Source: Elusimicrobiales bacterium (GTDB lineage Bacteria; Elusimicrobiota; Elusimicrobia; Elusimicrobiales; UBA9959). Taken from it: 36,020 nucleotides of DNA. Location of the stretch: positions 1 through 36,020 of the forward strand of contig JAVHLJ010000025.1 of assembly GCA_031082205.1 (NCBI GenBank). Reading direction: 5' to 3'. The translations under genes and the position numbers were made by a program. Shown here one piece after another: positions 1,505-26,538 of the stretch. A model generated the notes under the pieces. It was not told the origin of the DNA and did not search any database. It saw nothing but the letters and a program-made list of their open reading frames with translations. Every line of letters starts with the position of its first letter. Positions within the stretch are counted from its first letter, which is position 1.

Positions 1505-1774
1505 TCAGAGGAGGCCGGCTATAAGTCCGCCCAGCACCGCCGCGCCTATGATGACGCTCAGGCCTATGATGCCGGCCGATACCACGCGGCCGAAATACTC
1601 CGCGGCGGCCATGTTGCCGCGCGCTATCTCGCGCCCCTCGTCCATCCCGGGCGTGAGTTTGTCGAACACGGCCGGCAGCCTGCCTGCGAAGAACACGAAA
1701 AGCAGGGTTCCGAGGGCTCCTCCCAGTCCGGCGAAGGCCAGGGCCCAGGTTATGTCAACAAGGTTCTGCGGCAT
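1505..1774 (-). CDS. DUF350-family small membrane protein
   Basis: An 89-residue protein with two hydrophobic segments (about 8-30 and 63-89). Between them is the DUF350 hallmark: LTPG followed by a charged stretch and then RGNMAAAEYFGRVVSAGIIG. Family members usually carry two copies of this two-helix unit; this protein has one, so it probably acts as an oligomer. The start is supported by GGAGGA a few bases upstream on the minus strand. It is the first gene of a two-gene unit with the Hint/Tim44-like protein. Both products are membrane or envelope proteins, so a joint role at the inner membrane is plausible, but no biochemical function is established for the family that I can name. Confidence 0.7.
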   Translation of the reverse strand: MPQNLVDITWALAFAGLGGALGTLLFVFFAGRLPAVFDKLTPGMDEGREIARGNMAAAEYFGRVVSAGIIGLSVIIGAAVLGGLIAGLL

Positions 1775-1850
1775 TTTTCCTCCATCTATCCGATACCCGG
1801 AAGTCTATATATTTTTAAACGCCTATTCCACTTCCCGGCGGACAAAATGC

Positions 1851-1993
1851 TAAAATAGAGACACGCGGCGCCCTTCCCGGGCCCGCGATGGAGTCCTCTG
1901 ACAGCGGTCCGCCTCCGGCCGACCTCAAAATTCCATCGGAGAGACTTTCGCCTGGGCGGGGCTTCGTAGCCCCGTCCCCGAGCGGTACCGTTT
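1851..1993 (+). promoter_or_regulatory. Leader of the ABC-F gene: extended -10 candidate and start-proximal hairpin
   Basis: An extended -10, TGC followed by TAAAAT, lies at 1848-1856; no good -35 is visible. About 130 nt of leader follow. Just before the ABC-F start is a hairpin, CGGGGC-ttcgta-GCCCCG, around 1957-1974. No clear Shine-Dalgarno precedes the ATG at 1994. An out-of-frame ATG at 1888 opens a reading frame that runs across the true start. Leader-based attenuation is known for some ABC-F genes; applying it here is speculation. Confidence 0.35.
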
Positions 1994-3805
1994 ATGATCA
2001 CGCTGCGCAATGTTTCCAAATCCTTCGGCGGCCAGTCCCTTTTCGAGGACGCCTCTCTCCAGATAAACGACGGGGAGCGCTTCGCTCTTGTCGGCCCCAA
2101 CGGGGCCGGCAAGTCCACGCTTTTCAGGATGATGCTGGGACAGGAGGAGGCCGACGAGGGGGAACTGCAGTTCAAGCGCGGGACCGTCGTGGGCTACCTG
2201 CCGCAGGAGAACGCGCCGGTCTCGGAACGCACCGTTCTCGAGGAGACGCTTGCCGAACTCGACGACTTCGACGGCCGCAAGGAGGCCGAGGCCAAGGCCG
2301 TGCTGATGGGGCTGGGCTTCAAGGTCTCCGACTTCACGCGCAAGGTCAACACGCTCAGCGGCGGCTGGGCCATGCGGGTGGCCATGGCCCGGCTGCTGGT
2401 AAAGAAGCCGGACCTGCTGCTCCTCGACGAGCCCACCAACCACCTGGACCTCGACTCCCTCATCTGGCTGCAGGACTACCTTGCCTGGTACCCGGGCGCC
2501 GTGTTCATAATCTCGCATGACCGCGCTTTCATAGACTTCCTCTGCACCGCCATCGTTTCCCTGCAGGACAAGAAACTCAGGGTTTATCACGGCGACTACG
2601 CCAACTTCCTGGCCCAGCGCGAGGCCGAGAAGGAGAAGCTCGTGTCGCAGTGGAAGCAGCAGCAGCTGGAGATAGCGGACATGGAGGACTTCATCGCGCG
2701 CAACCGCGCCCGCGTCTCCACGGCCTCCCGCGTGCAGAGCATGATAAAGCGCCTGGAGAAGCTGGAGCGCATAGAGCTGCCGCCGGAGACCAAGACGGTG
2801 AAGATACGCTTCCCGCAGCCGTCGCGCACCGGCACCAAGGTGCTGGAGCTTAAAAATATCTCCAAGACCTACCAGGTCCCCGGCCACGACCCCATAAAGG
2901 TCTACGAGAATTTCAATTTCGAGCTGACGCGCGGACAGAAGCTGGCCTTCGTCGGCCACAACGGCGCCGGCAAGAGCACGCTGCTAAAGATGCTGGCCGG
3001 CGTGATAGAGCCGGATTCGGGCGAGCGGGTCCTGGGACTCAACGCCAAGACCGGCTATTTCTCCCAGCACCGCACCGGCATACTCGAGCCGCGCCGCACC
3101 GTCCTGCAGGAGGCTCTGGACAACGACAGGATGAACCCGGAGCTTATGGTGCGCACCGTGCTGGGAACCTTCCTTTTCCCGGGCGACAATGTCTTCAAGA
3201 AAGTGTCCGTCCTCAGCGGCGGAGAGAAGAGCCGGCTCATGCTGGTAAAGCTGCTGCTGGACCCGCCGAACGTCCTGCTCCTCGACGAGCCCACGACCCA
3301 CCTGGACATCCCCAGCGTCGAGGCGCTGATAGCCGCCCTCAAGGAGTACGAGGGCACGGTCTGCTTCATCAGCCACGACCTGTATTTCGTGAACCAGCTG
3401 GCCGACGCCGTGGTGCACGTGGAGAACGGCAAGGCCACGGTGTACCCCGGCAACTACGATTATTTCCACAGCCGCCAGGAGCAGATGAAGGCCGAGGCGG
3501 AAGCCGAGGCCGCCGCGAAGGCGAAGAAAGCCGCCGCCGCGCCGGAGCCCCAGGCCGACCCCCGCGACGAGGAGCGCCGGCAGAAGCGGGAGCGCGAGCA
3601 GGAGGATCGGCGCCGGGCGAGACTGGCCGAGGAGATAGCCGCGGCAAAAAAGAAGGTGGAAGAGCTGGCCGCGCGGCTTTCCGAACCGGCCGTGCACGCC
3701 GATTACGACCTGGTCAGGTCCATAGGCGAAGAGATAAGGGTTTTGGAGTCCGAGGCCGCAGCCAAGGAGAGCGAGCTCTCCGGCGGCCCGGAGGCAGGAC
3801 GGTGA
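1994..3805 (+). CDS. ABC-F family ATPase (ribosome-associated, Uup/YheS/EttA type)
   Basis: A 603-residue soluble protein with two ABC ATPase domains and no membrane segments, the layout of ABC-F translation factors that act in the ribosomal E site. Domain 1 has Walker A GPNGAGKST (34-42), signature LSGGW and Walker B LLLLDEPTNHLD. A charged helical linker (about residues 215-275) corresponds to the P-site tRNA interaction motif. Domain 2 has GHNGAGKST, LSGGEKSR and LLLDEPTTHLD, with Thr in place of the usual Asn. The last 110 residues are a Lys/Glu/Ala-rich coiled coil, as in Uup and YheS. The stop overlaps a GTG of the bipA reading frame, so the two genes are probably cotranscribed; both act on the ribosome. 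The exact subfamily cannot be settled by eye. An antibiotic-resistance role is possible but not indicated. Confidence 0.92.
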   Translation: MITLRNVSKSFGGQSLFEDASLQINDGERFALVGPNGAGKSTLFRMMLGQEEADEGELQFKRGTVVGYLPQENAPVSERTVLEETLAELDDFDGRKEAEAKAVLMGLGFKVSDFTRKVNTLSGGWAMRVAMARLLVKKPDLLLLDEPTNHLDLDSLIWLQDYLAWYPGAVFIISHDRAFIDFLCTAIVSLQDKKLRVYHGDYANFLAQREAEKEKLVSQWKQQQLEIADMEDFIARNRARVSTASRVQSMIKRLEKLERIELPPETKTVKIRFPQPSRTGTKVLELKNISKTYQVPGHDPIKVYENFNFELTRGQKLAFVGHNGAGKSTLLKMLAGVIEPDSGERVLGLNAKTGYFSQHRTGILEPRRTVLQEALDNDRMNPELMVRTVLGTFLFPGDNVFKKVSVLSGGEKSRLMLVKLLLDPPNVLLLDEPTTHLDIPSVEALIAALKEYEGTVCFISHDLYFVNQLADAVVHVENGKATVYPGNYDYFHSRQEQMKAEAEAEAAAKAKKAAAAPEPQADPRDEERRQKREREQEDRRRARLAEEIAAAKKKVEELAARLSEPAVHADYDLVRSIGEEIRVLESEAAAKESELSGGPEAGR

Positions 3806-3876
3806 CGCCGGAAGAGGGGACGCCATGTCTAATGGCGTCCCCGGCCGCGTCCGCCCCGCGAGGGGACAAGGAACGA

Positions 3877-5712
3877 ATGCAACAGGAAACCACAGCGCGC
3901 AGGGCCGACCTGCGTAACATAGCCATCATAGCCCACGTCGACCACGGCAAGACGACCCTGGTGGACGCCATGCTCAAGCAGACCGGGGCCTTCACCGACA
4001 AGAGCGGCGAAGAGGCCATCTGCATAATGGATTCCAACGACCTCGAGCGCGAGCGGGGCATAACCATACTTTCCAAGAACACCTCGGTACGCCGGGGGGA
4101 TACGACGATCCACATAGTCGACACCCCCGGCCACGCCGACTTCGGCAGCGAAGTGGAGCGCGTGCTTCGCATGGTGGACGGCGTGCTGCTTCTGGTGGAC
4201 GCCCTCGACGGGCCCATGCCCCAGACCCGCTTCGTCCTCAAGAAATCGCTGGCCCTCGGCCTGAGGCCGATAGTGGTCATCAACAAGGTGGACCGCCCCA
4301 ACTGCGATCCCCACGCCGCTCTGGACAAGGTCTTCGCGCTGTTCATGGAGCTGGGCGCCACCGACGCGCAGCTGGATTTCCCGGTCGTTTACGCCGTGGG
4401 CCGGGACGGCTGGGCTTCGCCCGACTATCATAAGCCGGCCAGGGACCTCTCCTTCCTCTTCGAGACCATAATGAAGCACGTGCCCGGGCCGCTGGACCTG
4501 GACTCGGAGCCCCTGCGGGTGCTGGTCACCATGCTGGACTACAGCTCCTACACCGGCCGGATAGGCGTGGGGCGCATAGTCCAGGGCGTCATCGCCTCCG
4601 GGCAGCAGGTAGCCGTCGGCTCTCCTTCCTCCCAGCCCGCGACACGGAAGGTCATGCAGCTCATGGGCTACCGCGGCCTGGACCGCGTGAACATAAAGAC
4701 CGCCCGCTCCGGCGATATCGTCGCCATAGCCGGCCTGGAGGGGGTGGAGGTGGGCGATACGGTCTCCTCCGTCGATTCTCCCGGCGTGCTGCCGGGACTC
4801 GAGATAGAGCAGCCCACTCTCTCGATGGAGTTCTTCGCCAACGACGGCCCGTTCTCCGGCCGCGAGGGGAAATTCGTCACGATAACCCAGATACGCGACC
4901 GCCTCTACCGCGAACAGGAGACCAACGTCGGCCTCAAGGTCGAGGAGATACCCGGCCAGGCCGGCTTCAAGGTCTCGGGCCGCGGCGAACTGCACCTCTC
5001 CATACTGATAGAGACGATGCGCCGCGAGGGCTACGAACTTTGCGTCTCGAAAATGGCCGTCATCACGAAGGAGGAGAACGGCGTGGTCATGGAACCGGTG
5101 GAGTACCTGATCCTGGACGCTCCCGCCGAGTTCCAGGGCGCCGTCATGACCGGCCTGGGCGCGCGCGGAGCGCAGATGAAGAACATGGTCACGGGCGACG
5201 ACGGCCGTGTGCGCTTCGAGTACGTCATCTCCTCCCGGGCGCTGATCGGATTCAAGTCGGAGTTCATGACCTTCACAAAGGGCTCCGGCCTGATGCATCA
5301 CAGCTTCCACGGCTTCCTGCCGGAGGGCAACTTCAGCCGGCCGCCGCGCAACGGGGTTTTCGTGGCCAAGGAGTCGGGCCAGTCGGCCGGCTACGCCCTG
5401 AACGGACTGCAGGACCACGGCGTCATGTTCGTGGGGCCCGGCGAGGACGTCTACGCGGGCCAGGTGGTCGGCGAACATTGCCGCGGAAACGACCTGGTGA
5501 CCAATCCGTGCAAGGAGAAGAAACAGACCAACATGCGCTCTTCGACCGCGGACGCCTCGATCATACTCACTCCCCCGCTCAGGATGAGCCTGGAGCAGGC
5601 CATAGAGTACGTCGAGGAGGACGAGTTCGTGGAGGTCACGCCGAAGAGCCTGCGCCTGCGCAAGAAGATACTCGACCATTCCATGCGAAAAAGGAGCGAG
5701 AAGGACGAGTGA
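3877..5712 (+). CDS. typA: Ribosome-associated translational GTPase BipA/TypA
   Basis: A 611-residue translational GTPase close to the usual BipA length. G motifs are all visible: AHVDHGKTT (19-27), [14 protein letters not shown] and NKVDRP. The EF-G-like domains III and V follow, and the C-terminal BipA-specific domain contains [15 protein letters not shown] and [12 protein letters not shown]. BipA aids 50S assembly and growth under stress, including cold. I chose the ATG at 3877, preceded by AGGGGACAAGGAACG, which gives the standard N-terminus. The frame also extends upstream to a GTG at 3802 that overlaps the ABC-F stop, but those 25 residues are not family-like. It is coupled downstream by a GTGA overlap to a small exported protein. 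Confidence 0.96.
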
Positions 5713-15177: not shown

Positions 15178-16329
15178 ATGGGCGGAACTCCGGACAGGAA
15201 GCGGATACTCAAGGAAATAATCGGGCAGCTCCATGCGGGGCTGCCGCTGGAGGCGGCAAAAAAGCGTTTCGAGGCCGAGATAGGGCCGGTCACCTCGAAG
15301 GAGATATTCGAACTGGAACAGTCGCTTCTCGAGGAGGGCGTTCCCGCCGAAGAGATAAAGAAGTTCTGCAATGTCCACGCCCTGCTCTTCGAGAAGTCCC
15401 TCGAGAAGAGCATGGCCGACCCGGAGGACCCGAACCATCCCGTCGCGCTGTTCAAGGCCGAGAACGCCGGGATAAAGCGCCGCGTCGATTCGGCCAAAGC
15501 CCTGCTGCCGGGCCTGAAGGACGGCAAGGGCGCGGACTGGGTGAGGAACATCCTGGAGGAACTGCGCGCCGTCATAAAGCATTACGAGCGCAAGGAACAG
15601 CTCCTCTTCCCGTACCTGGAGAAAGCCGGCTTCTACGGCCCGTCCAAGGTCATGTGGGGCAAGCACGACGAGGTGCGGGGGCTGTTCAAGAAGGCCTTCG
15701 CGGCGGGCCCGGCGGAATTCCCGGAGGCCGCGGCCGCCCTGCTCGAAGAGATCGACGGCATGATCTTCAAGGAGGAGAGCATACTCTTCCCGACGGCGCT
15801 CGAGAAGCTCAAGCCCGCCGACTGGGCCGAGATCTTCCGCGAGAGCGCGCAGGCCGGCTATATCTTCATAGAGCCGCCCGCCGCCATGGCCGAGGCCCTG
15901 GACATCGCCGCCAATACCGGCGTGGCCGGCGGCGCGGTGAACCTGCCCAGCGGCAATATGCGGCTGGACCAGCTCGTCGCCCTGCTCGACACGCTGCCGG
16001 TGGACCTGACCTTCGTGGACGCCGACGATACCGTGCGCTATTTCTCCGAGGGGAGGGACCGCGTCTTCCTGCGCGCCCGCTCCATCATCGGCCGCAAGGT
16101 GCAGAACTGCCATCCGCCGGCCAGCCTGGGCGCCGTGCAGAAGATAGTGGACGCTTTCCGGGCCGGGACGAAGGACTCGGAGGAGTTCTGGATAAACATG
16201 AAGGGCCGCGTCATACACATCCGCTATTTCGCCCTGCGCGGCCCGGCGAAGGAATACCTGGGAGCGCTGGAAGTGACCCAGGATATAACCGACGTGCAGA
16301 AAATTAAAGGCGAAAAGAGGCTGGCCTGA
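15178..16329 (+). CDS. DUF438 / hemerythrin-like / PAS domain protein
   Basis: A 383-residue protein with three parts. Residues 1-75 are DUF438 (ILKEIIGQLHAGLPLEAAKK, then SLLEEGVPAEEIKKFCNVHA). Residues about 80-225 are a hemerythrin-like four-helix bundle with HPVALFKAEN, IKHYERKEQLLFPYLEK, WGKHDEVRG and FKEESILFPTAL, supplying the His/Glu ligands of a di-iron site. Residues about 260-375 are a PAS domain (DLTFVDADDTVRYFSEG, then GRKVQNCHPP). Such proteins are thought to sense oxygen, NO or redox state. No output domain is present, so it may act through its partners cupin and DUF1858. SD GGGGGGAGA precedes the ATG. Confidence 0.92.
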   Translation: MGGTPDRKRILKEIIGQLHAGLPLEAAKKRFEAEIGPVTSKEIFELEQSLLEEGVPAEEIKKFCNVHALLFEKSLEKSMADPEDPNHPVALFKAENAGIKRRVDSAKALLPGLKDGKGADWVRNILEELRAVIKHYERKEQLLFPYLEKAGFYGPSKVMWGKHDEVRGLFKKAFAAGPAEFPEAAAALLEEIDGMIFKEESILFPTALEKLKPADWAEIFRESAQAGYIFIEPPAAMAEALDIAANTGVAGGAVNLPSGNMRLDQLVALLDTLPVDLTFVDADDTVRYFSEGRDRVFLRARSIIGRKVQNCHPPASLGAVQKIVDAFRAGTKDSEEFWINMKGRVIHIRYFALRGPAKEYLGALEVTQDITDVQKIKGEKRLA

Positions 16330-16330
16330 T

Positions 16331-16561
16331 ATGGAAGCGAAAATAATAGACCTGGACCGGACGCTCTACGACCTTACGACGGAGCACCCCGAGCTCATAG
16401 ACCTGCTCTTCGGGCTCGGCTTCATGGGAGTGAAGAACCCGGTGATGCGCGAGACCCACGGCAAGCAGATGACGGTGCGCGCCGGCTGCGGCCACCTCGG
16501 CATAGACCTGGAGAAGGTGAAGGCCGCGCTGGCCGCCAGGGGCTTCACGGTCAAAGGTTAG
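16331..16561 (+). CDS. DUF1858 domain protein
   Basis: A 76-residue single-domain protein. The DUF1858 pattern is clear: LYDLTTEHPELIDLLFGLGF near the N-terminus and a C-terminal helix LEKVKAALAARGFTVKG. It has one Cys (RAGCGHLGI). The ATG is one base after the DUF438 stop. DUF1858 and DUF438 are often neighbours or fused, and DUF1858 also occurs with hybrid-cluster and nitrite-metabolism proteins, pointing to redox or NO-related roles. Confidence 0.85.
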   Translation: MEAKIIDLDRTLYDLTTEHPELIDLLFGLGFMGVKNPVMRETHGKQMTVRAGCGHLGIDLEKVKAALAARGFTVKG

Positions 16562-18845: not shown

Positions 18846-19136
18846 ATGAAAGCCCCGATACTGGAAACTTACGGCAGGGAGGCCGCGGCGTTCAAGGCGC
18901 TGGGCCACCCGACGCGCCTCTTCATCGCCCATCAGCTGGGCAGGCGCGATACCTGCGTCTGCGAGCTGCGGGACATGGTAGGCGACGATATATCCACCGT
19001 TTCCAGGCACCTTTCCGTCCTCAGGAGCGCCGGGATAGTCGATTCCGTCAGGAAAGGCAACCAGATAATTTACAGCCTGAAACTCCGCTGCGTGCTCAAC
19101 ATAAGGGTCTGCGGCAACTTCGGCGGGAGAAAGTGA
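18846..19136 (+). CDS. arsR: ArsR/SmtB-family metalloregulator 1
   Basis: A 96-residue winged-helix repressor. ALGHPTRLFIAHQLGRRDTC leads to the metal-site motif TCVCEL (Cys37, Cys39) at the recognition-helix entrance, as in As(III)/Sb(III)-sensing ArsR proteins. The DNA-binding helix is DDISTVSRHLSVLRSAGIV. Two more Cys (82 and 89) near the C-terminus could complete a metalloid site. The ATG at 18846 fits the promoter spacing; the frame extends upstream only into the -35. The ArsP-type permease gene follows after 1 bp. It probably represses its own operon until arsenite, organoarsenical or another thiophilic metal binds. Confidence 0.9.
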   Translation: MKAPILETYGREAAAFKALGHPTRLFIAHQLGRRDTCVCELRDMVGDDISTVSRHLSVLRSAGIVDSVRKGNQIIYSLKLRCVLNIRVCGNFGGRK

Positions 19137-19137
19137 C

Positions 19138-20439
19138 ATGAGCTGGAAAGACGAATGGCGCCGGCTGGCCGGGTTTGTCGCGGTATTCTTTCTTTTTTAT
19201 TTCCTGCCGGTAGGCGCCCCCCGCTTCGACGGGGCCCTGACCGAGGCGCTGGAGCTGACCAAGTGGTACGTGCGCGAGCACGTGGTGCTCTGCCTCATCC
19301 CGGCCCTGTTCATAGCCGGCGGCATAGCCGCCTTCGTCAGCCAGGCCTCGGTGATGAAGTATTTCGGCGCCCGGGCCAATAAATTCCTTTCCTACGGCGT
19401 GGCCTCGGTATCCGGAACGATACTGGCCGTCTGTTCCTGCACGGTGCTGCCGCTGTTCGCCGGCATCTACAAGCGCGGCGCCGGCCTGGGCCCGGCCATA
19501 GCCTTCCTCTATTCCGGCCCGGCCATCAATGTGCTGGCCATAGTGCTGACCGCCCGCGTACTCGGCTTCGAGCTGGGCGCGGCGCGCGCCATAGGCGCCG
19601 TGGCGTTCAGCCTTGTCATCGGCCTGGCCATGCATTTTATTTTCCGGCACGAGGAGCACGCAAAGGCCGCGGCCCAGGCCGACCTGCCCGAGCCCGAGGT
19701 CAAGCGCCCGCTCTGGCAGACCACGCTGTACTTCGCCTCGATGGCCGCCGTTCTGATATTCGCCAACTGGGCAGAAGCGGACCCTTCGGATAGGGTATTC
19801 CACGCCATACACGGCCTTAAATGGCCGCTCACGGGCTTCTCGGCCCTGGCGCTGGCCGTCATGCTCAAGGCCTGGTTCGGCGCCAACGGCCCGCGGCTTA
19901 TCCTGGCGGCCATACCCGCCGTATCGCTGGCCTTCTTCATGCCGGACCTGCCCATACTCTCTTTCTCCGCGGGCTTCATCGGCCTGTCCTGGGTGCTCAA
20001 CACCTCCGGCGAGGGGGAACTGGCGGACTGGTTCTCTTCCGCCTGGGACCTGTCAAAGCAGATCTTCCCTCTTCTCATCGGCGGCGTGCTGGTCTCCGGT
20101 TTCCTGCTGGGCCGGCCGGGTCACGAGGGAATCATCCCCTCGCACTGGGTGGCCTGGGCCGTCGGCGGCAACTCCTTCGCGGCCAATTTCTTCTCCTCGC
20201 TGGTCGGCGCTTTCATGTACTTCGCCACGCTGACCGAGGTGCCGATACTGCAGGGCCTGCTTGGCTCCGGCATGGGCAAGGGCCCCGCGCTGGCGCTGCT
20301 GCTGGCCGGCCCGGCCCTCTCGCTGCCCAATATGCTGGTGCTCAAGACCGTGATGGGGACTAAGAAGACGGTCGTTTACGTCGTCCTTGTAGTGGCGATG
20401 GCCACGGCCAGCGGCATGTTCTACGGTAAATATTTTTAG
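19138..20439 (+). CDS. ArsP/SO_0444-type permease (PF03773-like), metal or organometalloid efflux
   Basis: A 433-residue membrane protein with about ten helices in two related halves. The first half shows IPALFIAGGIAAFVSQASVM, KFLSYGVASVSGTILAVCSC and FLYSGPAINVLA; the CSC pair within the membrane is typical of this family. The second half has a similar NSFAANFFSSLVGAFMYFAT and LLLAGPALSLPNMLVL. Relatives include ArsP, which exports trivalent organoarsenicals, and larger permeases annotated as Cu/Zn exporters. Being directly behind arsR and ahead of ArsE/F/G-like genes, organoarsenical efflux is the best guess. Methylmercury is an alternative raised by the nearby hgcAB. Confidence 0.85.
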   Translation: MSWKDEWRRLAGFVAVFFLFYFLPVGAPRFDGALTEALELTKWYVREHVVLCLIPALFIAGGIAAFVSQASVMKYFGARANKFLSYGVASVSGTILAVCSCTVLPLFAGIYKRGAGLGPAIAFLYSGPAINVLAIVLTARVLGFELGAARAIGAVAFSLVIGLAMHFIFRHEEHAKAAAQADLPEPEVKRPLWQTTLYFASMAAVLIFANWAEADPSDRVFHAIHGLKWPLTGFSALALAVMLKAWFGANGPRLILAAIPAVSLAFFMPDLPILSFSAGFIGLSWVLNTSGEGELADWFSSAWDLSKQIFPLLIGGVLVSGFLLGRPGHEGIIPSHWVAWAVGGNSFAANFFSSLVGAFMYFATLTEVPILQGLLGSGMGKGPALALLLAGPALSLPNMLVLKTVMGTKKTVVYVVLVVAMATASGMFYGKYF

Positions 20440-20448
20440 GAGGACCTT

Positions 20449-20694
20449 ATGAAAAAGAAGATACAGGTGCTGGGGATGGGCTGTCTCAAGTGCAACCGCC
20501 TTTACGCCAACGCCGAGCTGGCCGCGAAAGAGCTGGGCCTGGATTACGAGATGGAGAAGATAGCCGACATCGACAGGATAACCGACATGGGCGTCCTTAT
20601 GACCCCGGCTCTGGCGGTGGACGGCAGGGTGCTGCTCTCCGCGAAGGCGCCTTCCGTAGAGGAACTCAAGAAGCTGCTCGGAGAGCTTAAATGA
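20449..20694 (+). CDS. Small thioredoxin-like protein (redox-active CxxC), ArsE-like position
   Basis: An 81-residue thioredoxin-fold protein of the short MTH895/TM0996 type: active site CLKC (Cys12, Cys15) after a first beta strand, and a cis-Pro motif MTPA (Pro53). SD TAGGAGGACC is strong. It is cytoplasmic, with no signal. Its position between the permease and ArsF/ArsG-like genes matches ArsE, the small protein of the arsEFG set described for nitroaromatic arsenical handling in Shewanella (from memory). It may reduce a metalloid substrate or its protein partner. Confidence 0.85.
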   Translation: MKKKIQVLGMGCLKCNRLYANAELAAKELGLDYEMEKIADIDRITDMGVLMTPALAVDGRVLLSAKAPSVEELKKLLGELK

Positions 20695-21260
20695 AACCGT
20701 CGCCCGTGCTGAAGACCGCCCTTCTCGTTTTCGTCGCCGCGGCCGCCGGCTCCATGGTCTATAAGGCCGCCGTCGCGCCGCGCTCCGCCAATGAAGCGCG
20801 GAGCTCCGCGTCGGCCGGGACGGCCGGCGTCCCCGCCGCCTCGGCGGCCGCGGCGCCGGCCGCAAAGTCCGCCGCGGCGGTTTCCGCTTCCCCGGCGGCG
20901 GTGAAGAAAGCGGAGGCCCCGGCGAAAAAAGCCATGGTCTATTATTTCCACACCAGCGCCAGGTGCTATTCCTGCAATACGCTGGAGAAGTACACCCGCG
21001 AGGCCGTGGAAGGCGGTTTCAGGGAGCCTTACAAGGGCTGGCGGGTGGAGTTCCGCGGCGTGAACCTGGATGACCCGGCCAATCGCCGCTTCGTCGAGGA
21101 GTACAAGCTGGCTTCCAAGGCCGTGGTGGCGCAGAAATTCGAGGGCGACCGCCCGCTGGCCTGGAAGGAGCTGCCGGATGTCTGGCGGCTGCTGCGCTCT
21201 AAGGAGCTCTTCACCGGCTACGTGACCGGCGAGATACAGGGCCTCCTGGACGCCGAATGA
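20691..21260 (+). CDS. arsF: ArsF-family protein, membrane-anchored with CxxC
   Basis: A 189-residue protein starting in an ATGA overlap with the thioredoxin gene. Residues 6-24 form an N-terminal membrane anchor or signal, followed by an about 55-residue Ala/Ser/Pro-rich linker. The conserved domain starts with VYYFHTSARCYSCNTLEKYT (Cys92, Cys95), and continues with VNLDDPANRRFVEEYKL and a C-terminal IWxL-like helix region. This is the family annotated as a nitrophenyl compound nitroreductase subunit, ArsF. It is probably a periplasm-facing thioredoxin-like protein working with the ArsE-like and ArsG-like neighbours. Confidence 0.82.
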   Translation: MKPSPVLKTALLVFVAAAAGSMVYKAAVAPRSANEARSSASAGTAGVPAASAAAAPAAKSAAAVSASPAAVKKAEAPAKKAMVYYFHTSARCYSCNTLEKYTREAVEGGFREPYKGWRVEFRGVNLDDPANRRFVEEYKLASKAVVAQKFEGDRPLAWKELPDVWRLLRSKELFTGYVTGEIQGLLDAE

Positions 21261-21949
21261 CGGCGGAATTCTTGGCGGCCGCCGCGACGGCGCTGTGGAC
21301 GGGGGTGATCACCTCGGTGAGCCCCTGTCCCATGGCCACCAATATCGCCGCTCTCTCGTGGATATCCAGGCATTCCGGCTCGCATAAGATGGCCGTGCTG
21401 GCCCACGGCCTGCTCTACGCCGTCGGCCGCGCGCTGGCCTACATGATCATCGGCTTCCTGCTGGTCAAAAGCCTGCTCAGCGCCCCGGCCTTCTCTTTCT
21501 TCATGCAGAAGTACGGCAACCAGGTCCTGTCGCCGCTGCTGGTGCTGGCCGGCATGTACATGCTGGACATGTTCGGCGGGTCTTTCGCCGGGTTCAATTT
21601 CTTCGATATGACGCGCTTCAAGGCGAAGGCGGGGGCGCTGTCCTCGCTGCTGATGGGCATGTTCTTCGCCCTGGCCTTCTGCCCCATCGCGGCGGCGCTG
21701 TACTTCGGCATGACCATACCGCTGGCCGCCGCCAATTCGGCGCCGTTCTCCATACCGCTGCTCTACGGCCTGGGCACGGCGCTGCCCGTCATAGGCGCGG
21801 CCGTGGCCATAGACTTCGGCCTCAGGAAGGTCTCCGCGGTGACGGGGCTGGCCGGGCGCTTCGAGCATTGGGCCAGACCCGTGACCGCCTGGGTCTTCAT
21901 CGCCGCCGGCGTCTACCTGGGGCTCAAGTATATTTTCGGGATAATTTAG
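21257..21949 (+). CDS. arsG: ArsG-family transporter (DsbD/CcdA-like)
   Basis: A 230-residue protein with six membrane helices in the CcdA/DsbD pattern. Two half-repeats each have a Cys-Pro motif: VSPCPMATNIAALSW (Cys24) and ALAFCPIAAALYFG (Cys at about 138). The family is annotated as the ArsG permease for aromatic aminobenzylarsenicals; the fold is that of thiol-electron transporters, so it could instead pass electrons to ArsF. It starts in an ATGA overlap with arsF and ends 5 bp from the convergent hgcB stop. No terminator separates the two operons. Confidence 0.85.
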   Translation: MTAEFLAAAATALWTGVITSVSPCPMATNIAALSWISRHSGSHKMAVLAHGLLYAVGRALAYMIIGFLLVKSLLSAPAFSFFMQKYGNQVLSPLLVLAGMYMLDMFGGSFAGFNFFDMTRFKAKAGALSSLLMGMFFALAFCPIAAALYFGMTIPLAAANSAPFSIPLLYGLGTALPVIGAAVAIDFGLRKVSAVTGLAGRFEHWARPVTAWVFIAAGVYLGLKYIFGII

Positions 21950-21954
21950 GGTTT

Positions 21955-22248
21955 TCAGCAGCAGGTGCCGTCGTCGCCGCAGCCGCAATCCGGTTCAGTG
22001 CCTTTCAGGAGGCCGTTGCGCACGGCCTGAGCGCAGCCCACGCCTTTTTTCACCGAGATGGCGTCCACGGGGCAGTTATTCGCGCAGGCTCCGCATTCCA
22101 TGCACAGGTCCGCGTCCGTGACGGACGCCTTGCGGCCCTCCACCGTGAACACGGCGTGCGGACAGACGGCGACGCACATGCCGCAGCCTATGCATTTCTC
22201 CGCGTCCAGTTCCAGCGTGGAGACCCCGCGCAGGTATTTCATGCTCAT
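21955..22248 (-). CDS. hgcB: Mercury-methylation ferredoxin HgcB
   Basis: A 97-residue protein with two 4Fe-4S motifs, CIGCGMCVAVCP (Cys19, 22, 25, 29) and CMECGACANNCP (Cys49, 52, 55, 59). What marks it as HgcB and not a generic ferredoxin is the rest: YLRGVSTLELD at the N-terminus, VKKGVGCAQAV with the extra Cys72, and a C-terminal tail with Cys88 and Cys90 and a final vicinal pair Cys96-Cys97, which can bind Hg(II). HgcB reduces the corrinoid of HgcA and probably delivers mercury. Its ATG overlaps the hgcA stop (ATGA) and has GGGGAGG upstream, so it is the second gene of an hgcAB operon. Confidence 0.95.
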   Translation of the reverse strand: MSMKYLRGVSTLELDAEKCIGCGMCVAVCPHAVFTVEGRKASVTDADLCMECGACANNCPVDAISVKKGVGCAQAVRNGLLKGTEPDCGCGDDGTCC

Positions 22249-23237
22249 AAGAACCTCCCCGCCGCCAGGATGGCCAGCCCCGAGGCGAAGGCCAGGGCGT
22301 GCGCCGGCATGGCCAGGCGCATCTCTTTCTTCACCCCGGAAAGGGAGGTGTAGGTGGAGGCGCCGGTGAAATCCAGTCCGACGAAAGAGGCGGCGGCGCC
22401 GTAGATAAGCGCCCTGGCCGCGAACTGCGCCGTGGTCTGGTCGTGGGACAGGGCGATGATAGCCGTGACCAGCAGACCGGCCGCGGCGCTTTTCACGGCG
22501 AAGCTCCTGCCCGGCAGCCAGGGGAGCAGGGCTGGCACCAGCGCCCCTCCGGCGAACAGCGCTCCCGCTGTATAGGCCGCGTCCTCCGTGTACCCCAGCG
22601 CGTAGAGCAGCGCCGCGGCCGGCAGCATGTACCTGCCGAAATGCACCAGCTGCACCGGCGCCAGTATCATTCTGTCCATGAAATTAAAGCGTACCCTGCG
22701 CATTCCGGGCGTGGCGCGGCCCAGCCGCAGGTATTCGGGGATGTCCTCCGCCCTGACCGGCCCGAAGACGGCCGAGAATCCCGTATAGGCCTTTAACCTG
22801 TGGGCGCTGACGCCGGGCGCTCCCAGCTGGGGGAGTATGACCTTGCGGTGATTCACCCGTTTTTCAAGCCCGGTCTCGGCGATGATCCGCGCGAGCTCCG
22901 GCGTGCCGAAGGTCCCTTTGCCGGCGGCGCACCAGACATTGACGCCCCTGGTGTCCAGCACCAGGATCCAGGCGTTCAGGCCTTTGAGATTGACGCGCAG
23001 GGCGTCGAAACTGAGCTTGTAGTTGGCGGTGGCGAAGACGGGCGAGTCCGCGCCGGGCGCGCCCAGCGCGTAAAGGCCTGGCTTCACCCGGTGCGCCATG
23101 CGGCCGATCCCCCAGCGGGCTTTCCAGGCCGCCAGCCTGTCGGCCCTTGTGTATTCCGGGGTGGCGGTCTCCACGGCCGACGGTCCGGCGGCGCCCAGGC
23201 CCGGCGATAACTTAACTTTGAGAATATTCCCGCTCAT
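22245..23237 (-). CDS. hgcA: Mercury-methylating corrinoid protein HgcA
   Basis: A 330-residue membrane corrinoid protein. The N-terminal cytoplasmic domain includes WGIGRMAHRVKPGLYALG, FATANYKLSFDALR and the diagnostic cap-helix motif NVWCAAGK (100-107), whose Cys103 is the cobalt ligand required for methyl transfer to Hg(II). Five transmembrane helices follow (about 185-330), with the conserved TSLSGVKKEMR near the end. The ATG at 23237 has AAAGGA upstream; the frame extends further upstream but without family similarity. The methyl group usually comes from one-carbon (Wood-Ljungdahl-type) metabolism, not seen in this window. The gene is divergent from the second arsR across a shared palindrome. 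Confidence 0.96.
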   Translation of the reverse strand: MSGNILKVKLSPGLGAAGPSAVETATPEYTRADRLAAWKARWGIGRMAHRVKPGLYALGAPGADSPVFATANYKLSFDALRVNLKGLNAWILVLDTRGVNVWCAAGKGTFGTPELARIIAETGLEKRVNHRKVILPQLGAPGVSAHRLKAYTGFSAVFGPVRAEDIPEYLRLGRATPGMRRVRFNFMDRMILAPVQLVHFGRYMLPAAALLYALGYTEDAAYTAGALFAGGALVPALLPWLPGRSFAVKSAAAGLLVTAIIALSHDQTTAQFAARALIYGAAASFVGLDFTGASTYTSLSGVKKEMRLAMPAHALAFASGLAILAAGRFL

Positions 23238-23271
23238 GAGTCCTTTCGCGTCCCGGTCTCTCCCGGGCGGC

Positions 23272-23310
23272 TTGCTTTCACCGGCATATATGCGTATAAT
23301 AGCATATATG
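23272..23310. promoter_or_regulatory. Shared divergent promoter and ArsR-type operator between hgcA and arsR2
   Basis: A perfect inverted repeat, CATATATGC (23285-23293), 8-bp spacer, GCATATATG (23302-23310), ends exactly with the arsR2 start codon. Plus strand: TTGCTT (23272-23277), 17-bp spacer, TATAAT (23295-23300), seven bases before the ATG. Minus strand: TGC+TATTAT (extended -10) occupies 23296-23301, giving hgcA an approximately 50-nt leader with its own SD and a CCCGG/CCGGG hairpin (23253-23268). The two -10 elements almost coincide, so one bound repressor dimer would silence both directions. Confidence 0.72.
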
Positions 23311-23703
23311 AAAGCGGAGCGACGCGATAACGAGGCGGCGGTCAAGGCGGTCAGGGCGCTCAAGGCGCTGGCCGACGTCAACCGTCTCCGGACGGCCGCC
23401 CTGCTGGCCCGCGCCGGGCGGGAGCTTTGCGTCTGCGAGCTGGTGGACGCTCTGCGGGAGAGCCAGTACAACGTCTCGCGCTACCTGGGCGCGCTCTGCG
23501 CGGCCGGCCTGATACGCAAGGAAAAAAGGGGCCGCTGGGCTATGTACTCGCTGGTGAACGACCGCGGCCCCCTTGCCGGATATATCGGCAGGCTGGTCCG
23601 GCCGCGGCCCTGCTGCGGCGTCATCGCCGCTGATATCGCCAGGCTGGAACACAGACTCGCTTTGCGGCGCCGCGGCGTTTGCGTGGTGGGGGGCAACTGC
23701 TAG
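23308..23703 (+). CDS. arsR: ArsR-family metalloregulator 2, divergent from hgcA
   Basis: A 131-residue winged-helix repressor. ALKALADVNRLRTAALLARA leads into ELCVCEL (Cys41, Cys43), the canonical ArsR As(III) motif, followed by the recognition helix ESQYNVSRYLGAL. Extra Cys occur at a CC pair (PRPCCGV) and in the C-terminal GVCVVGGNC. Start at the ATG that closes the palindrome, with a -10 seven bases upstream and no SD, so probably leaderless. It leads the iscA-like, arsC, acr3 and phnD-like genes and is well placed to control hgcAB too. ArsR-type regulation of hgcAB has been reported in Pseudodesulfovibrio (from memory). Confidence 0.92.
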   Translation: MKAERRDNEAAVKAVRALKALADVNRLRTAALLARAGRELCVCELVDALRESQYNVSRYLGALCAAGLIRKEKRGRWAMYSLVNDRGPLAGYIGRLVRPRPCCGVIAADIARLEHRLALRRRGVCVVGGNC

Positions 23704-23735
23704 CCGTTTTAACCCTGCGATAAAGGAAAGAGACA

Positions 23736-24053
23736 ATGGAGATCAAAGACGCTGCGGTGGAGAAACTCAAGGCGCTGCTCAAGGAGTCCGGCAGGACCGG
23801 GACCCTGCGCGTATTCGTGACGGCGGGCTGCTGCGGGCCTTCCATCGGGATGGACCTCGTGGAGAAAGCGGAAGAGGGCGACCTGGAGGTCCGCAATAAG
23901 GACTTCAAGGTCTATGTGGACAAGAGCGCCGCGGCCATGGTGGAGAAAGCGGCGCTGGACTGCGACGAACAGGGCGACATCATAATGAGGAACCTGCCCG
24001 CCCCCGGCTGCGGCGACGGCTGCGGCGGCGGGGACTGCGGCTGCGGTCATTGA
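23736..24053 (+). CDS. IscA/HesB-like protein with a cysteine-rich tail
   Basis: A 105-residue protein. The IscA/HesB fold is visible in VEKLKALLKESG, LRVFVTAGCCGPSIGMDL (Cys32-Cys33) and FKVYVDKSAA. The family's usual C-terminal Cys-Gly-Cys appears expanded: Cys76, then GCGDGCGGGDCGCGH with four more Cys and a final His. Members of this branch occur in metal and arsenic operons and in anaerobes; function beyond Fe-S or metal binding is not established. Here, between arsR2 and arsC, it could protect or repair Fe-S clusters attacked by As(III) or Hg(II), or serve as a metallochaperone. SD AAAGGAAAGAG is present. Confidence 0.82.
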   Translation: MEIKDAAVEKLKALLKESGRTGTLRVFVTAGCCGPSIGMDLVEKAEEGDLEVRNKDFKVYVDKSAAAMVEKAALDCDEQGDIIMRNLPAPGCGDGCGGGDCGCGH

Positions 24054-24060
24054 GGCAGAT

Positions 24061-24480
24061 ATGAAGATACTTTTCCTTTGCACGGGGAATTCCTGCCGCA
24101 GCCAGATGGCCGAGGGGTGGGGGAGAAAGCTGCTCGCCGGAAAAGCCGAGGTGTTCTCGGCCGGGACCAAGCCCGGCACGGTGGACCCGCGGGCGGTAAA
24201 GGTGATGGCCGAGGCGGGGGTGGACATCTCGGGCCACCGCTCCAAGCACGCGGACGAGTTCAAGTATACGGCATTCGACCTGGTGGTGACCGTCTGCGAT
24301 AACGCGCGCGAGAGCTGTCCCGTCTGGTTCGGCAAGGCGGAGAAGATGCACAGGAGTTTCGAGGACCCGCCGCACCTGGCCAAAGAGGCCGGGAGCGAGG
24401 AAGAGGCGCTGGCGCATTACCGCCGGGTGCGCGACGAGATACGCGATTTCGTGGCCGGACTGGCCGGAGGAGAAAAATAA
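24061..24480 (+). CDS. arsC: Arsenate reductase ArsC, thioredoxin-coupled (LMW phosphatase fold)
   Basis: A 139-residue protein. The P-loop is CTGNSCRS, with nucleophile Cys7 and Cys12. The redox pair Cys79 and Cys86 in [10 protein letters not shown] has the same spacing as Cys10/82/89 of S. aureus ArsC. The catalytic Asp is Asp102 in EDPPH. It reduces As(V) to As(III) using thioredoxin, feeding the exporter encoded directly downstream, whose ATG overlaps the arsC stop by one base. The gap from the IscA-like gene is 7 bp. Confidence 0.96.
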
Positions 24481-25571
24481 TGGACGGCATCGTCAAAAAA
24501 CTTTCGTTCCTGGACCGCTATCTTACTCTGTGGATCTTCGCCGCCATGGCCGTCGGCGTGGCCGGCGGCTGGATGTGGCCGCAGGCCGTGGCCGACTTCA
24601 ACGAGGCCTCCAGCGTGGGCACGACCTCCATACCGATAGCCATAGGCCTGATACTCATGATGTACCCGCCGCTGGCCAAGGTGAAATACGAGGAGATGCA
24701 CCGCGTCTTCTCCAATAAGAAAGTGCTGGCGCTGTCGCTGGTACAGAACTGGCTGGTCGGCCCCGTGCTCATGACGGCGCTGGCCATTATCTTCCTGCGC
24801 GACAAGCCGGAATACATGGTGGGGCTCATCATGATAGGCCTGGCGCGCTGCATCGCGATGGTCATAGTCTGGAACGACCTGGCCCGCGGCGACCGCGAAT
24901 ACTGCGCGGGGCTGGTGGCCTTCAATTCGGTGTTCCAGGTCCTGTTCTTCCCCGTCTACGCCTGGTTCTTCATCACGCTGGTGCCCGGCTGGTTCGGCCT
25001 GGAGGGCGCCGCCGTGAACATCACCATGGGGGAGATCGCCAAAAGCGTATTCATCTATCTCGGCGTCCCGTTCATCGCCGGCATGCTGACCCGTTTCTCC
25101 CTGATAAAGGCCAAAGGGCGGGCCTGGTACTCGGAGAGATTCATCCCGGTTATAAGCCCGCTGACGCTTATAGCGCTGCTCTTCACCATCATAGTCATGT
25201 TCTCCATAAAGGGCGAGAACATCGTGCAGGTGCCTTTCGACGTGGTCCGGATAGCCGTGCCGCTGCTGGTCTATTTCGTCCTGATGTTCCTGGCCTCTTT
25301 CTGGATGAGCCGCAAGGCCGGCGCTGATTACCCGGAATCGGCCACGCTGTCGTTCACGGCGGCCTCCAATAACTTCGAGCTGGCCATAGCCGTGGCCATC
25401 GCCACTTTCGGCATAAGCCACGGGGCGGCCTTCGCGGCCGTCATAGGCCCGCTGGTGGAGGTGCCGGTGCTCATAGGCCTGGTCCACGTCTCGCTGTGGA
25501 TAGGCCGGCGCTGGTTCGGCCGGCCCGCCGCGGACGGGCCCGCTACGGTGAGGACGGCGGAAACCGCTTGA
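24480..25571 (+). CDS. acr3: Arsenite efflux transporter Acr3
   Basis: A 363-residue protein with about ten transmembrane helices of the BASS/ACR3 fold. The Acr3 hallmark [17 protein letters not shown] contains the essential Cys124, and [16 protein letters not shown] contains the conserved Glu of the ninth helix. It exports As(OH)2O-/As(III) by the membrane potential or proton gradient. It completes the arsC-acr3 resistance pair. Start: ATG at 24480 after GGAGGAGAAA. The last 15 residues are a non-conserved Ala/Pro tail. Confidence 0.96.
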
Positions 25572-25626: not shown

Positions 25627-26538
25627 ATGAACACAAAATCCATGAGCGTCGGTTTCGCGGCGGGCCTGACCGCCATACTATTCATGTCCGGCTGCGCCAG
25701 GAGGGACGAGGCCACGGTGGGCACGCCCGCCAACCCGCTGGTGGTGGTGCTGTCTCCGGCTTACTCGCCGGCCGCGGCGCCGGACGCCGAAAAGACCTTG
25801 CGCGAGCACCTGGAAAAGGCCTCCGGCCTGACCGTGCAGCTGCGCGTGGCCCCTTCCCAGATGGAGGCGATAAACGCCTTCTCCTCCGGCAAGACCGACG
25901 CGGCCCTGCTGCGTCTGGAAGAATACCTTGTGGCCAGGCAAGAATACGGCGTAAGCCCGGGCCTGCAGGCGCTGCGCGAGGGCAAGGCCTCCGACTATGA
26001 GGCCGTGATACTCGGCCGCGACGGCAAGGCGCAGGAGATAGGCGCGCTCAAGGACGGGAAGATCGGCCTGGTGGGCCCCTATTCCGTCAGCGGCTTCACG
26101 CTGCCCTCAATCTACCTCAAGAAAGCGGGCGGCAAGTTCACTCCCGTCTTCTCCAAGAGCCACGACGAGAACGTGGAGCGGCTGCTCAAGGGCGAATTCG
26201 ACGCCGCGGCCACCTACGCCCGTTACGCGGCCAAGCGCAAGGGGCTCAAGGTGCTGGCCGTCACCGGCCGGGTCCCCAATGAGCCCGTGGCCGTGCGACG
26301 CGGCCTGGACGCCGCCAAGCGCGAAAAGATCCTGGCCGCCTTCTCCACGCTGGCGGACAAGCCCGAGGGCCGCAAGGTTCTGGCCGCCATGGCGGATATA
26401 ACCGGTTTCCGCCCGGTCGACGCCTCGGTCTATAAGCCGATACACGACCTTATCCGTTCCGAGGGCAAGGCCGTCTACGACCTGGTCCCGGACGGCTGGA
26501 CCATACATAAACTGAACCAGCCCTATTTTCACGACTGA
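25627..26538 (+). CDS. PhnD-like periplasmic binding lipoprotein without a cognate transporter
   Basis: A 303-residue protein with a lipobox (FMSGC, lipidated Cys23) and a two-lobed PhnD-type fold: NPLVVVLSPAYSPAAAPDAE, an oxyanion-contact region SGKTDAALLRLEEY, VGPYSVSGFTLPSIYLK and GEFDAAATYARYAA. Relatives bind phosphonate, phosphite or phosphate; AioX, which binds arsenite, is also a member. No other Cys is present, so an AioX-like As(III) thiol site is unlikely; arsenate or a phosphonate is more plausible. No permease or ATPase gene is nearby. It follows acr3 by 55 bp with SD GGGGGAGAA and no evident terminator, so it is likely in the ars operon. Confidence 0.8.
   Translation: MNTKSMSVGFAAGLTAILFMSGCARRDEATVGTPANPLVVVLSPAYSPAAAPDAEKTLREHLEKASGLTVQLRVAPSQMEAINAFSSGKTDAALLRLEEYLVARQEYGVSPGLQALREGKASDYEAVILGRDGKAQEIGALKDGKIGLVGPYSVSGFTLPSIYLKKAGGKFTPVFSKSHDENVERLLKGEFDAAATYARYAAKRKGLKVLAVTGRVPNEPVAVRRGLDAAKREKILAAFSTLADKPEGRKVLAAMADITGFRPVDASVYKPIHDLIRSEGKAVYDLVPDGWTIHKLNQPYFHD

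Follow-up and report, generated by a model that had tools for sequence, protein, structure and literature searches.

The question raised by this locus is why genes for mercury methylation should lie inside an arsenic-resistance island, and whether the two are bound by more than their place. The window, that is the whole stretch of 36,020 nucleotides analysed here, is one whole contig, and its host belongs to the Elusimicrobiota, as the preliminary description had surmised. The answer favoured here, with a probability of about 0.72, is that hgcAB forms with arsR2 and hesB a functional and mobile cassette under the control of ArsR2, lodged in a slot between arsG and arsC that it holds in common with arsM. 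The island and its parts are the following (profile scores in bits, followed by the cut-off where there is one):

18846-19136, plus strand: arsR1 (NF033788, 80.4 against 55)
19138-20439, plus strand: permease of the ArsP_1 family, a family match without substrate assignment (PF03773, 239.8)
20449-20694, plus strand: arsE-type thioredoxin-like protein (TIGR00412, 91.9 against 62)
20691-21260, plus strand: arsF-family protein (NF040494, 87.8 against 60)
21257-21949, plus strand: arsG-family efflux permease (NF040495, 224.7 against 200)
21951-24051: exchange cassette hgcB-hgcA-arsR2-hesB, swapped for arsM in L180 and L181
21955-22248, minus strand: hgcB, ferredoxin with two [4Fe-4S] clusters (NF040864, 126 against 99)
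22245-23237, minus strand: hgcA, corrinoid methyltransferase, 330 amino acids from ATG (NF040863, 393.8 against 275)
23285-23310, no strand: palindrome of 26 bp, putative ArsR2 operator, CATATATGC-gtataata-GCATATATG
23308-23703, plus strand: arsR2, ArsR/SmtB repressor with a CVC motif (NF033788, 69.6 against 55)
23736-24053, plus strand: hesB/iscA-like gene (PF01521, 38.8 against 26.3)
24061-24480, plus strand: arsC-like gene of the low-molecular-weight phosphatase fold (LMWPc; TIGR02691, 138.8, below the cut-off of 174.3)
24480-25571, plus strand: acr3, arsenite efflux (TIGR00832, 450 against 282.8)
25627-26538, plus strand: phosphonate-binding-type periplasmic protein (PF12974, 154.4), part of the conserved island by synteny

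The arsenic-resistance flanks described at first sight were recovered by profile matches, with arsR1, arsP and arsEFG on one side of the pair and arsR2, hesB, arsC and acr3 on the other. The acr3 gene is single-copy in the genome and starts 1.2 kb from hgcA, and on the right the island continues after the phosphonate-binding-type protein with a response regulator and a FadL-type porin.

The two mercury genes, overlapping by 4 bases, had been taken for the methylmercury-forming pair, and this identification is exact in its coordinates and passes both curated NCBIfam cut-offs, HgcA covering profile positions 3-324 of 325 and HgcB positions 1-93 of 93. The diagnostic residues are all present: in HgcA the cap-helix motif NVWCAAGK with its cobalt-ligating cysteine (residues 100-107), the WCAAG core of which is invariant across the HgcA alignment, and in HgcB the eight cluster cysteines (19, 22, 25, 29, 49, 52, 55 and 59, in two CX2CX2CX3C motifs), Cys72 and the terminal pair Cys96-Cys97. 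As to the five C-terminal membrane helices claimed for HgcA, the number is inherited from the full-length family match; about three strong segments stand out by simple hydropathy. From 75 positions conserved (93% or more) among 74 HgcAs of other phyla, 73 are retained in the window's family, and a dN/dS of about 0.22 indicates purifying selection on hgcA. The pair is real and typical, and represents a variant of an already known association with ars genes.

The preliminary description had also raised the possibility of an artefact, either a chimeric assembly or a CFeSP paralogue mistaken for HgcA. The genome is a draft of 2.75 Mb in 98 contigs with a contamination estimate of 3.4%, a point on the side of an artefact, but the same gene order and junctions recur in independent MAGs (including HGW-, GWB2- and GWC2-Elusimicrobia bins), so the locus is not a chimera, and G+C is even over the window. 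As for the latter, the HgcA model gives 316-428 bits for the HgcAs of Elusimicrobiota and 64-82 bits for their CFeSP-like proteins, ranges that exclude a confusion, and the acetyl-CoA synthase gamma model (NF003195) scores the window's HgcA at 75.3 bits, below its cut-off of 306. Given the recurrence in independent assemblies and the family scores, both forms of artefact were rejected as highly improbable.

HgcA above the cut-off was identified in 23 of 341 Elusimicrobiota genomes. Within the window's family ars genes adjoin hgcAB in 14 of the 15 genomes with hgcA, the fifteenth being G143, in which a 3.8-kb contig stops near the gene; in the other families of the phylum acr3 adjoins hgcA on the same strand in four of eight. 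Among 75 named loci from other phyla hgcA is directly preceded by a co-oriented arsR-like gene in 22 and stands divergent to one in 2, and ars transport or reductase genes are found within 10 kb in 17; since many contigs are short these counts are lower bounds. A methylator from this phylum linked to arsenic genes had been put forward as an addition to knowledge, but the literature has had hgcA from Elusimicrobia, and hgcAB with acr3, arsC, arsR or arsM at its side, since 2020 (PMC7438021, PMC7573106). McDaniel et al. 2020 (PMC7438021, Fig. 6) found acr3, arsC, arsR and arsM adjoining hgcAB or a few genes away from it in diverse methylators and already counted Elusimicrobia among the carriers of hgcA, whereas the window presents one arrangement kept across a family, a divergent operator and an exact exchange with arsM. 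The Phycisphaerae locus L075 (1441-7259) resembles the window in its divergent arsR followed by hgcA-hgcB and a facing arsG-arsF-arsE-arsP-arsR, and differs in belonging to another phylum and in an HgcA outside the window's clade; the window-type operator was not found at this locus.

The exchange is seen in L180 and L181, from the two genomes of the window's genus that lack hgcA: homology with the window breaks off where arsG ends (21950) and picks up again at 24052, immediately ahead of arsC. There one arsenite methyltransferase gene (arsM) replaces, at gene ends, the 2.1 kb cassette. These two and the further hgcA-less relatives (L182-L197) share the island backbone and its flanks with the window, at 75-89% DNA identity where aligned, and differ in carrying arsM instead of hgcB-hgcA-arsR2-hesB, or arsR2-arsM-hesB without hgcBA. 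Three ArsM proteins of such islands score 280.9, 270.0 and 283.3 bits with NF008823 (cut-off 263), that of L181 exceeding the curated cut-off, and the top PDB matches of the slot ArsM are solved ArsMs. In other arsM islands the order after arsG is arsR2-arsM-hesB-arsC or arsR2-arsM-arsC, and because such orders exist the state with hgcA may represent a gain of hgcBA beside arsR2 and a separate loss of arsM. A single replacement of arsM by hgcAB is not claimed, the arsR2-arsM-hesB orders of L182 and L183 fitting two events at least equally well. The exchange of arsM and hgcAB in one slot is new, as far as the literature search shows, and is the valuable part of the finding.

In the family's 59 genomes an arsM orthologue was identified in 1 of 15 with hgcA and in 20 of 44 without it (p 0.011, ancestry ignored); among those carrying the island (ArsG-positive) the figures are 1 of 10 against 17 of 21 (Fisher p 3e-4, ancestry likewise ignored), and restriction of these to a completeness of 90% or more leaves 0 of 7 against 14 of 16. 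Nowhere in the window's genome was there an arsM match at E 1e-30. This near-exclusion and the slot in common speak for a functional substitution, in which HgcAB would take the job of ArsM as an arsenic-induced, corrinoid-based alternative to that SAM enzyme; its selected role would lie in methylating arsenite or another metalloid, or in a joint handling of mercury and arsenic, mercury being either one of the substrates or the object of a side reaction, and permeases of the ArsP type would export the product. We know of no arsenic methylation by HgcAB, and the literature search found no paper that treats hgcA, its native function, arsenic and corrinoid together. The rpoB tree, with 33 genomes, requires six changes of hgcA and seven of arsM, and its informative independent pairs are all opposite in direction, a point in favour of substitution together with the differing gene orders, which suggest gain and loss as separate steps; such pairs, however, number only about two, too few for phylogenetically corrected significance. 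This tree is based on rpoB from 34 of the 59 family genomes, with 33 rows used, the row of G127 having a frame error (35 stops masked). Substitution is further weakened by slots that are empty or hold unrelated genes, by two genomes that carry hgcA as well as arsM (G142, 63% complete, and G186, which is not of this family), by arsM near hgcAB elsewhere (McDaniel et al., PMC7438021) and by the active-site columns of HgcA, which are all of the usual type, and it is considered unlikely. The swap with arsM gives a testable lead on the purpose of the mercury genes.

The other contents of the slot bear on a different reading. The slot is empty in L186 (13 bases) and apparently so in L261, and in L262 (G151) the region between arsG and arsC (1711-4821) comprises a clostripain-like peptidase, an M20-type amidohydrolase and a membrane protein, all named by eye; the slot therefore takes varied cargo. 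It could then be a general insertion site which hgcAB reached by chance or through the mobility of the island, the exclusivity with arsM being competition for one place and the co-regulation having no physiological meaning. The small number of independent events fits this reading as well, but it accords poorly with the arsR genes that directly precede hgcA or diverge from it in 24 of the 75 loci of other phyla, with the transport and reductase genes near 17 of them, with the acr3 genes adjoining hgcA in four other Elusimicrobiota loci and with an operator core kept in 12 of 12 loci of this ArsR arrangement. Hitchhiking of this kind is judged slightly less probable still than substitution.

The cassette reading is carried further by the region between hgcA and arsR2, which diverge from the two sides of the palindrome. 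The window has no second site of this kind, and 100 shuffles gave none, even at three mismatches. The operator core, ATATGC[GA]TATAATAGCATAT, occurs once per genome in 12 of the 341 Elusimicrobiota genomes, all of them with hgcA and always at the hgcA/arsR2 site, and the reversed core, used as a control, had zero matches; the conservation in 12 of 12 loci is inflated by linkage by descent. The palindrome encloses the -10 box of the arsR2 side (TATAAT), which in L036 and L046 stands in the form TTGACA-17-TATAAT (12/12). The opposite strand reads TGC-TATTAT, a TG-extended -10 facing hgcA, in 12 of 12 hgcA loci, and the promoter scanner called this TATTAT independently in L036 and L046; arsM-type islands have four related sites, and there the hexamer on the hgcA side starts with A, not T. 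In the window the -35 box of arsR2 is weak (TTGCTT) and a strict promoter scan found no promoter, and the -35 on the hgcA side is poor in most loci, where the promoter is a candidate one. ArsR2 has its CVC motif in the metal-binding helix / recognition-helix region (ELCVCELVDA), CVCE being conserved in all aligned ArsR2 rows. A palindromic promoter region common to hgcAB and a CVC-bearing ArsR makes the metalloid control suggested earlier for hgcAB likely, and an operator that two divergent genes share and that is confined to hgcA loci has, to judge from the papers found, no precedent.

Other arrangements were also identified. The window-type operator is missing from L038, L048 and L051; the first and last of these pair a different palindrome, TTCGTTA-N10-TAACGAA, with an ArsR of another kind. 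Genome G139 contains two hgcAB loci, L043 with the CATATATGC-type operator and L051 with TTCGTTA-N10-TAACGAA and a different ArsR. A further copy of the ArsR2-type palindrome belongs to a second ArsP-like permease gene of G132 (L183, 9646 and 10593), possibly forming a small regulon. The start codons of the two window arsR genes (23308 and 18846) lie only a few bases past the expected -10 region, so both mRNAs may be leaderless.

In the cassette reading, ArsR2 bound at 23285-23310 would shut off two transcripts that start from overlapping -10 elements, hgcAB to the left and arsR2-hesB-arsC-acr3 to the right. The repressor would let go once its CVC site took up As(III) (or Sb(III)), so that hgcAB would be expressed at the same time as the genes for reducing arsenate and exporting arsenite. 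Control of hgcAB by an ArsR-like regulator with a response to arsenic was shown in Pseudodesulfovibrio mercurii ND132 (Gionfriddo et al. 2023), as summarised in PMC10349881; according to that summary the arsR of ND132 is upstream of hgcAB and co-transcribed with it, whereas arsR2 of the window points away from hgcAB, stands first in the arsC-acr3 operon and has one putative operator in common with that pair. A natural swap at one site and a named operator turn a possible link between mercury methylation and arsenic into specific tests, namely whether ArsR2 frees hgcA in response to arsenite and whether HgcAB is capable of ArsM's job. If the reading is true, exposure to arsenic could raise the methylmercury potential in this lineage.

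The reaction itself would proceed by transfer of a methyl group from the methyl-THF pool to Hg(II) by HgcA, with HgcB re-reducing the corrinoid. The check for methyl donors proposed at the outset gave MTHFR and a MetH-type B12-binding domain in the genome; HgcA is the only PF03599 match, so that the genome has no CFeSP. Methyl-THF through a MetH-like route would be the likeliest donor, in agreement with the Elusimicrobia methylators described without the CODH catalytic subunit (PMC7438021). A search of the genome for MerB gave no match, and its control was also without any match.

There remains the mobility of the cassette, which by the proposed explanation travels as one piece, hgcAB together with its own repressor gene and hesB. 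Between G000 and G127, the latter from another genus, the dS of the four cassette genes is 0.46-0.53 and that of the other aligned island genes 0.59-1.18. Since the cassette is less diverged between genera than the rest of the island it probably moves as a unit, and it seems from these values to have passed between genera as a block. No earlier report of this lower divergence was met in the literature search. The HgcAs of the family form a single clade with full support and a long stem, and hgcA is scattered over the rpoB tree (33 genomes). An Acr3 tree was set aside except for the nearest neighbours of the window: it falls into two groups whose branches measure about 5 changes per column, probably since some rows cover different halves of the protein. 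Upstream of the island, at 15178-16561, a DUF438-hemerythrin-PAS protein and a short next protein were identified, and both recur next to several of the relatives' islands.
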